DNA from: a virus
Length of the DNA stretch: 46,675 nucleotides
Direction: 5' to 3' (one strand)
IMG/VR virus record: IMGVR_UViG_3300046780_000371
Location: 1-46,675 of that record
In this document: piece by piece, positions 1,313-3,094 of the stretch
How positions within the stretch are numbered: position 1 is the first letter of the stretch
Layout of the letters: each line of letters opens with the position of its first letter
Notes under the pieces: model-generated
The model's input: only the letters and a program-made list of their open reading frames with translations
The model's database searches: none
Told to the model about the DNA's origin: nothing
Program-made: the position numbers and the translations under genes

Positions 1313-2296
1313 GTGGATCTACGTCCCGTCAACGTGCTTAGCCTCTGCACCGGAAGCGGCGGACTCGACCACGGCATCAAGCTGGCGGTCCCAGCTGCTC
1401 GCATCGTCTGTGCTGTGGAGATCGAAGCCTACGCCTGCGAAGTCTTGGCTTGGCAGATGGAGGCGGCTCGACTGGACCAGGCGCCTCTTTGGACGAATCT
1501 CCGAACCTTCGACGGCCGACCGTGGCGTGGCCTCGTGGATTGCGTCATTGGCGGCTACCCGTGCCAGCCATTCAGCATGGCCGGAAAAAAGCGCGGCGCC
1601 GACGATCCGCGACATCTCTGGCCAGACGTCGCTCGCATCGTCCGAGAGACAGGGCCAGCTGTGTGCTTCTTTGAAAATGTCGGCCACCATCTGCGCGTCG
1701 GCTTCCGTGACGTCGCCGGAGAGCTACACGCGATGGGCTACCGCGTTGCGGCGGGCCTCTTTACAGCGGCGGAAATTGGCGCTACGCACAAGCGCGAACG
1801 CCTCTTCATTCTGGCCCACCGCGAAGGTCTCGACTGGCGATTACTGCTACAGCAATGGCAATCACAGCACGCCAGCACTCAATCTCAGTGGAGCGGCGAG
1901 ACGCTGGAAGACGCCGCTGTCGCTGAACCACGGCGAGACAGGGAACATCGCGGGTCAGAGTCAGCTCGGCATCCAAGTACGCCATTGGCGCACACCGTCG
2001 GACGATTCGAAACGTGGCGGGGCAGCGAATGCGCAGGCCCGAATAGCGCAGGGTCACACGCTCAATCTGCAGGATCAAGCCGCTTCGTGGGCCTCCCCGC
2101 ATGGCCGCCAGGACCAGACGACCCCGCATGGGCAGACGTCCTCCAACGTTGGCCGGAAGTTGAACCCGCTTTTTGTGGAGTGGTTGATGGGATGGCCGAT
2201 CGGATCGACCGGCTTCGACTCTGCGGCAATGGAGTCGTCCCGCAGGTGGCAGCAACGGCATGGCAGCACCTTGCCGCTGACCTTGCCGCTATTTGA
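1313..2296 (+). CDS. DNA (cytosine-5-)-methyltransferase
   Basis: This 327-residue enzyme transfers methyl from S-adenosylmethionine to C5 of cytosine in DNA. Motifs appear in the usual order: motif I VLSLCTGSGGL (8-18), motif IV with the catalytic Pro-Cys-Gln (GGYPCQPF, 80-87), the ENV of motif VI (121-123), motif VIII KRERLFILA (160-168), and motif X RLCGNGVVPQ (302-311). The variable region between VIII and IX would be the target-recognition domain. The GTG start at 1313 lies 2 bases after the previous stop, with an AAGGAAG ribosome site. No restriction enzyme is adjacent, so it is probably a solitary phage methylase protecting phage DNA from host restriction. A second open frame runs through its 3' half; see the next feature. 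Confidence 0.93.
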   Translation: MDLRPVNVLSLCTGSGGLDHGIKLAVPAARIVCAVEIEAYACEVLAWQMEAARLDQAPLWTNLRTFDGRPWRGLVDCVIGGYPCQPFSMAGKKRGADDPRHLWPDVARIVRETGPAVCFFENVGHHLRVGFRDVAGELHAMGYRVAAGLFTAAEIGATHKRERLFILAHREGLDWRLLLQQWQSQHASTQSQWSGETLEDAAVAEPRRDREHRGSESARHPSTPLAHTVGRFETWRGSECAGPNSAGSHAQSAGSSRFVGLPAWPPGPDDPAWADVLQRWPEVEPAFCGVVDGMADRIDRLRLCGNGVVPQVAATAWQHLAADLAAI

Positions 2297-2309
2297 GGAG
2301 ACCGCATGA
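1809..2309 (+). other. Second coding-like +1 frame over the methyltransferase 3' half
   Basis: The +1 frame relative to the methyltransferase is open from 1311 to TGA 2307-2309. From about 1809 it looks like protein. It begins Phe-Trp-Pro-Thr, repeats Trp-x-Thr-Pro-type motifs (RRWKTP, RHWRTP, then TTPHG), and ends with LNPLFVEWLMGWPIGST at 2160-2210 and a Trp-rich tail. From memory, repeated W-x-TP motifs followed by LNP-x-FVEWLMGxPxGWT are common in phage C5 methyltransferases, where they form the C-terminal recognition region. Its stop overlaps the next gene's start as ATGA, while the main frame stops 9 bases earlier. Whether it is translated, by +1 frameshifting or internal initiation, is unknown; no start or slip site is evident. 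Confidence 0.45.
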
Positions 2310-2533: not shown

Positions 2534-2691
2534 CGAACAAACAAGTGGTGACGTCTCTCGGCAACGCGGTCTGCCCGAAACATCCACGCTGGCAGAAGAA
2601 GCGCAAGCCGACATCAACCTGTCAGAACTGCTGGTTCATCTGGATCATGCGCCTGCTCGCGAACGACGCCACGGAGCTGCGCTTTGACTAA
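2530..2691 (+). CDS. Small zinc-ribbon protein, 53 aa
   Basis: A short gene starts at ATG 2530, in an ATGA overlap with the previous stop, and ends at TAA 2689-2691, 8 bases inside the next gene. The 53 residues contain Cys-Pro-Lys-His (15-18) and Cys-Gln-Asn-Cys-Trp (31-35), separated by a basic Lys/Arg stretch. This is a plausible Cys/His zinc knuckle, followed by an aromatic segment (FIWIM) and an acidic end. Similar tiny zinc-ribbon proteins are frequent in phage accessory operons. Perfect start/stop coupling on both sides supports translation. A nucleic-acid-binding role is inferred from the zinc motif only. Confidence 0.6.
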   Translation: MTNKQVVTSLGNAVCPKHPRWQKKRKPTSTCQNCWFIWIMRLLANDATELRFD

Positions 2692-3094
2692 GACGCTTAT
2701 TCTGACGGTAGGATTGCCGCGATCAGGCAAGAGCGCGTGGGCTCGGTCGACGCCATACCCTATCGTTAATCCGGACTCGATCCGGCTGGCGCTACACGGG
2801 CAGGCGTTCGTCGCAGAGGCCGAACCGATGGTCTGGGCCATCGCGCGCTACATGGTCAAGGCGCTCTTTCTCGCGGGCCACGCCATCGTCATCCTTGATG
2901 CGACAAACGTCACGCGGCACCGACGCAGCGAGTGGCTGTCGAAGGATTGGGTGTGCTCCTACAAGGTCTTTGATGCACCGTGCGACGTCTGCATCGCGCG
3001 ACCTGGCGGCAAGGAATTATCTGACGTGATTCTTCGGATGTCAAAGCAGTGGGAGGATCTGACCGATGCCGAACAGAGACGCCTCATCGGGTAA
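2684..3094 (+). CDS. P-loop kinase (polynucleotide-kinase-like)
   Basis: This 136-residue P-loop protein has a Walker A motif GLPRSGKS at residues 10-17 after a hydrophobic first strand (LILTVG). A second hydrophobic strand ends in an Asp (IVILDATNVT), followed by an Arg-rich lid-like segment (HRRSEW). The Gly-x-Pro-x-Ser-Gly-Lys-Ser loop and D-x-TN-x-T motif match the AAA_33 / T4 polynucleotide-kinase 5'-kinase group. A nucleic acid end or small phosphoacceptor is therefore the likely substrate. No phosphatase domain is attached; the metallophosphoesterase upstream could serve that role, which is speculation. The TTG start at 2684 overlaps the zinc-ribbon gene by 8 bases. Confidence 0.75.
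   Translation: MTKTLILTVGLPRSGKSAWARSTPYPIVNPDSIRLALHGQAFVAEAEPMVWAIARYMVKALFLAGHAIVILDATNVTRHRRSEWLSKDWVCSYKVFDAPCDVCIARPGGKELSDVILRMSKQWEDLTDAEQRRLIG

Follow-up and report, generated by a model that had tools for sequence, protein, structure and literature searches.

Two superposed full-length phage genes that probably encode the two chains of a split C5-cytosine DNA methyltransferase

Two interlocked genes at one locus

The locus lies in a 46,675-base virus record (IMGVR_UViG_3300046780_000371), the whole of which is hereafter called the window; alpha, B, and their parts are on the + strand. The alpha gene (1313–2296, 327 amino acids, GTG start) encodes the catalytic chain of a C5-cytosine DNA methyltransferase with motifs I–VIII and X. 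It matches the Pfam family PF00145 (E = 8.7e-35, residues 7–205) and the PHROG family phrog_363 (E = 9.4e-57). The Pro-Cys-Gln of motif IV at 1559–1567 contains the catalytic cysteine, Cys84, which is invariant in alignment A2 together with Asn122, and Glu121 and Val123 are at least 90% conserved. Motifs I–VIII of the single-chain C5 enzymes, including Pro-Cys and Glu-Asn-Val, are therefore all found in alpha. Motif X is located in the DRLRLCGNGVVPQ region at 2210–2248, in which Gly305, Asn306, and Gly307 are invariant in A2. A preliminary description of this DNA had considered motifs I–X of this frame to be intact. This is correct for motifs I–VIII and X but not for motif IX, because the PF00145 match stops at position 196 of the 324 profile positions and a motif IX-like sequence is found in the other frame. 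Alpha thus differs from the single-chain enzymes, in which the catalytic chain also holds the recognition domain and motif IX.

The superposed gene, B, is read in the +1 frame (1311–2309, 332 amino acids, GTG start), begins with MWIYVPS, and is open over the whole gene. Its recognition-like region (1812–2159; translation and alignment A1) contains W-P-T and W-x-T-P repeats and is followed by the motif IX-like LNPLFVEWLMGWP at 2160–2198, which is near-invariant in A1 and fits motif IX of single-chain relatives. The earlier description had placed the second frame at 1809–2309, with FWPT, W-x-T-P repeats, and LNPLFVEWLMGWPIGST from 2160. These stretches are indeed present in the translation and the frame is open there, but its real span is the entire gene. 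The ATGA overlap that had been noted at its end is also real: the TGA of B at 2307–2309 overlaps the ATG of the next gene at 2306 (ATGA, 2306–2309).

The two starts interlock in the sequence GTGTGG (1311–1316), with the GTG of B at 1311 and that of alpha at 1313. A Shine-Dalgarno-like GAAGGA at 1298–1303 is located 7 bases 5′ of the B start and 9 bases 5′ of the alpha start, and the GTGTG at 1311–1315 therefore holds two starts 2 bases apart behind one such site. In Escherichia coli, translation begins in either of two frames at AUGUG and GUGUG sites if the spacing is suitable, and the rnpA-rpmH overlap of Thermus is the natural case cited for ambiguous starts (PMC9841429). The present site shares with them the two starts 2 bases apart and the single Shine-Dalgarno site. 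It differs in that its two products most likely belong to a single enzyme as subunits and in that many phages have the arrangement.

The TAA of the upstream gene (816–1310) directly precedes the B start. By eye, this gene is metallophosphoesterase-like (SDIHLGHENI and GHRRLLLGNHD), with no Pfam family at E 0.01. The next gene (2306–2533) has a short tandem repeat at its start, encoding NDYEQPAPNDYEQPAP, and no Pfam family, and the gene at 2684–3094 is P-loop kinase-like (PF13671 AAA_33, E = 3.2e-11). A scan of five neighbouring genes recognised no restriction endonuclease, in keeping with an orphan protective enzyme but no proof of one.

Recurrence of the arrangement in phages and prophages

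Viral contigs were searched with two queries, B and the N-terminus of alpha, which yielded 129 loci. By tblastn, nearly all of the 80 loci retrieved with B have the N-half and C-half of alpha in one frame and B in the +1 frame, and so do the nine nearest of those retrieved via the alpha N-terminus. The loci were then counted with four profiles (alpha N, alpha C, B N, and B C). The full dual arrangement was present in 87 of the 130 first-round viral loci (the window counted), and 31 further, more distant loci of this round lacked only a recognisable alpha C-half. Among 80 bacterial genome loci retrieved with B, 79 have it too, as do 75 of 80 viral loci retrieved via the alpha alignment alone and all eight annotated records. 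Nine more annotated phages, fetched by alpha similarity, have B in the +1 frame of alpha, some of them via weak profile matches only: Paenibacillus Redbud, E. coli phiEc4, Pseudomonas Riah, Bordetella PHB09, Klebsiella VLCpiS13e, Xanthomonas BsXeu269p/3, Microcystis Mel-JY01, Salmonella S9-5, and Synechococcus Yong-M2-251. The superposed arrangement is found across hundreds of phage and prophage genomes with diverse hosts.

The interlocked start recurs as well. A survey of B starts of the form M-(x)-W, in which ATG, GTG, and TTG were allowed as alpha starts within a limit of 14 bases, found such B starts in 84 loci; an alpha-frame start codon was no more than 10 bases away in 84 of 84, a proximity that is partly expected by chance because of this limit and the three start codons allowed. 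The offsets of the alpha start from the B start were +2 in 33 loci, +5 in 22, −4 in 19, −7 in 5, and −10 in 5. At offsets +2 and +5, the alpha ATG or GTG is completed by TGG, the Trp codon of B. A Shine-Dalgarno-like tetramer was found upstream in 58 of 83 loci, compared with a background of 17%.

Annotation usually records one frame of the two, and not always the same one. Most records therefore would miss or misname half of a widespread phage modification enzyme. The homologous genes of the Synechococcus phages Ssp-JY39 (L131) and Yong-M2-251 (L308), which have the same match statistics, are annotated as B in one phage and as alpha in the other. In Paenibacillus phage Redbud (L299:1076-1780), B starts inside alpha and bears the depositors' label 'g50 internal gene'. 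A prophage copy in E. coli PCP07014 (L310:901-1662) is annotated as a pseudogene; it has an internal stop in alpha, and its B frame is also interrupted.

Selection on the two frames

The preliminary description had named stops in the +1 frame of homologues, or freely varying synonymous sites, as signs that the second frame is a shadow. We permuted the alpha codons among synonymous positions in 80 viral loci with a clean alpha frame. The B frame of these relatives contains 13 stops, whereas approximately 297 were expected after shuffling, an under-representation of about 20-fold. The deficit extends over both halves of B, with 9 stops observed against 179 ± 11 expected in the N-half and 4 against 118 ± 9 in the C-half. 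The third frame showed only a mild stop deficit in this test, and the +1 stops in 253 neighbouring open frames, used as a control, amounted to 1.02 of expectation. In the reverse shuffle (67 loci), in which B was kept and its codons were shuffled, 0 alpha-frame stops were observed against 213 + 301 (approximately 513) expected, a result that arises partly by construction because these loci were picked for a clean alpha frame.

Synonymous variation is likewise suppressed in the C-half. Among closer pairs, synonymous changes account for 21% of the changed codons in the alpha C-half and for 57% in the N-half, compared with 64% in neighbouring genes. Neither of the two signs of a shadow therefore applies to the C-half. 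In a first profile test, B scored above shuffles that preserved alpha, and alpha above shuffles that preserved B, each in its two halves. We then clustered the relatives at 65% and measured B against the third frame. This stricter control gave a profile z of 12.9 for the C-half of B (third frame, 4.8) and of 5.7 for the N-half (third frame, 4.7), the latter being no clear excess. Based on these z scores and the low synonymous share, dual coding is strict in the C-half. For the N-half of B, the amino-acid selection suggested by the first profile test was mostly removed by the third-frame control, and we therefore claim for this half only stop avoidance, a start that is conserved, and a weak deficit of synonymous changes. 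Its frame is kept open while its sequence is weakly constrained, and the pair of Salmonella S9-5 and E. coli PT62 gave the same picture. This half may simply be the stretch that is translated on the way from the shared start to the recognition region.

Across many relatives, selection acts on both frames, and the two begin and end together. The earlier proposal of two superposed genes is strongly supported, as homologues keep both frames open. As general background, +1 frames are frequently open in GC-rich genes, and the mean GC content of the loci is 63%, which would favour a chance shadow; yet shuffles preserving the protein and the codon usage still gave 20 times more stops, and the control genes had no deficit. 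The same pattern in hundreds of independent contigs and complete genomes speaks against both a shadow and a sequencing error, and the indel that had already been judged unlikely can be set aside with them. We see virtually no chance for either explanation, both being ruled out by the synonymous shuffles and the recurrence.

Division of the enzyme between two chains

The AlphaFold2 model of alpha (pTM 0.74) is of good quality in the catalytic domain and in the helices of motif X. Residues 192–255 (1886–2077), at the expected place of the recognition domain, have pLDDT values below 50 and are predicted to form a disordered linker, with no structured domain between motifs VIII and X. A Foldseek search with this model found M.HaeIII (E = 9.7e-14) and M.HhaI, with only about 174 columns aligned. 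Alpha thus shares the catalytic domain fold with M.HhaI and M.HaeIII but, as judged from its model, lacks a target-recognition domain; motif IX is likewise absent from this catalytic chain.

B matches phrog_1008, 'DNA methyltransferase' (E = 8.8e-15). PHROG 363 and 1008, which bear the same name, are separate families in the library, whereas here they are two frames of one DNA. A Pfam scan of all B members gave no PF00145 match and no consistent family, the structure model of B alone was poor (pTM 0.23), and a search of solved structures with the B alignment gave matches at chance level only. The assignment of motif IX to B consequently rests on sequence comparison. The end of B corresponds to motif IX, with LTPIECERLQGFPDNWTE as its counterpart in the single-chain relative L012, and the distant B of L013 has LNPRFVAEMMGFPPNWTE at its motif IX-like end. 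In the single-chain relatives (L012, L047, and L049), motifs IX and X are both in the catalytic frame. From this comparison, B appears to carry the target-recognition region and motif IX.

In Gordonia phage Upyo (L306:1213-2482), there are two adjacent annotated DNA methylase genes. The short chain ends after motif VIII, and the second chain, in the +1 frame, holds the recognition repeats, motif IX, and then motif X. This layout may represent a simpler split state and a possible origin of the superposed form. The gap in the alpha model, the motif IX-like end of B, and the second chain of Upyo together point to a distribution in which motifs I–VIII and X are on alpha and the recognition region and motif IX are on B.

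It is quite likely that the two full-length superposed genes encode the two chains of one split C5 methyltransferase, probably a protective one. Frame 0 would supply alpha, the large catalytic domain with motifs I–VIII and X joined by the disordered linker, and frame +1 would supply B with the target-recognition region and motif IX. Because the two starts are 2 bases apart behind one Shine-Dalgarno-like site, ribosomes could initiate in either frame. We infer that both chains are made from one message and assemble, as a heterodimer, into one enzyme, which would probably shield the phage DNA from host restriction. Each chain alone lacks some of the enzyme parts, and two subunits therefore fit better than two alternative enzymes.

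Alternative C-terminal ends produced by frameshifting had been suggested in the preliminary description. A programmed +1 frameshift after motif VIII would join the catalytic half to the C-half of B as an alternative recognition end, and this fusion would link motifs I–VIII with the recognition region and motif IX. It would suit the homology of B, which is most pronounced past the end of motif VIII, and the weak constraint on its N-half. However, B is also stop-free upstream of the junction (9 stops against 179), which a frameshift does not need, and has its own start adjoining that of alpha. No slippery sequence is evident in the junction consensus, and the fusion product would have no motif X. 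We therefore regard frameshifting as improbable.

B might instead be a separate protein with another role, such as a methyltransferase regulator or an anti-restriction protein. The absence of a Pfam family for B and of a known domain in its N-half would be in line with this, as would the general background that superposed viral genes are frequently functionally unrelated. Such a role is unlikely, since the end of B fits motif IX of C5 enzymes while alpha lacks exactly motif IX and the recognition domain, and since, in the Gordonia arrangement, one chain holds the motif IX-like sequence together with motif X.

For a two-chain enzyme, the closest precedent by analogy is M.EcoHK31I. Its small chain has about 176 amino acids and, as Lee, Kam and Shaw reportedly described in 1995, is encoded in an overlapping frame within the large-chain gene. 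M.EcoHK31I is a natural two-chain C5 enzyme with motifs I–VIII and X on the large chain and motif IX on the small chain (PMC3404938). The same division is seen here, for B by sequence comparison. The recognition domain of M.EcoHK31I is predicted on the large chain (PMC3404938), whereas here the recognition region is apparently on B, and the model of alpha has no structured domain between motifs VIII and X; because it is a prediction only, this mismatch lowers the membership in the M.EcoHK31I type, not the mechanism. B is further set apart from the small chain, as described, in that its 332 amino acids span the entire alpha gene from an interlocked start. M.AquI is a C5 enzyme split into two polypeptides at the recognition region (PMC3404938). 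The present enzyme would likewise be on two chains divided at this region, but the small chain of M.AquI holds motif X as well as motif IX, whereas motif X (GNGVVP) is in the alpha frame here. Upyo, with motifs IX and X together on the +1 chain, is closer to M.AquI. No earlier report of superposed phage methyltransferases was found in the open-access literature. Compared with M.EcoHK31I, what appears to differ is that the genes are superposed over their full length, that their starts interlock, and that the recognition region is apparently on B; given the open-access scope of the search, this novelty is provisional.

A broader reading, whose prospects we see as evenly balanced, is that a common phage enzyme is an obligate two-chain methyltransferase encoded by full-length superposed genes, with one ambiguous ribosome-binding site that would also set the ratio of the chains. 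The catalytic and recognition chains would then evolve together, because both are on the same DNA. If alpha were cloned alone, inactivity or a lack of specificity would be expected. The family provides hundreds of natural cases of full-length dual coding and interlocked translation starts. Both are, to our knowledge, seldom described in bacteria and their phages, and the family opens their origin and evolution to direct tests.

Several loci deviate from this scheme. Stops in the alpha linker between motifs VIII and X, 14 in L125:1783-3312 and 4 in L088:544-2025, count against the simple two-chain model, which does not explain why motif X (GNGVVP) persists downstream of them; B is intact in both loci. 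The stops may reflect decay, separate re-initiation, or recoding. L089, L091, and L115 have one or two alpha-frame stops, and frame shifts of other kinds are seen in L061 and L175. L005 and L006 depart from the other loci in the frame of the C-terminal parts relative to the catalytic half. A run of CA dinucleotide repeats is located inside the gene at L005:3695, and slippage, phase variation, or an assembly error may be involved.
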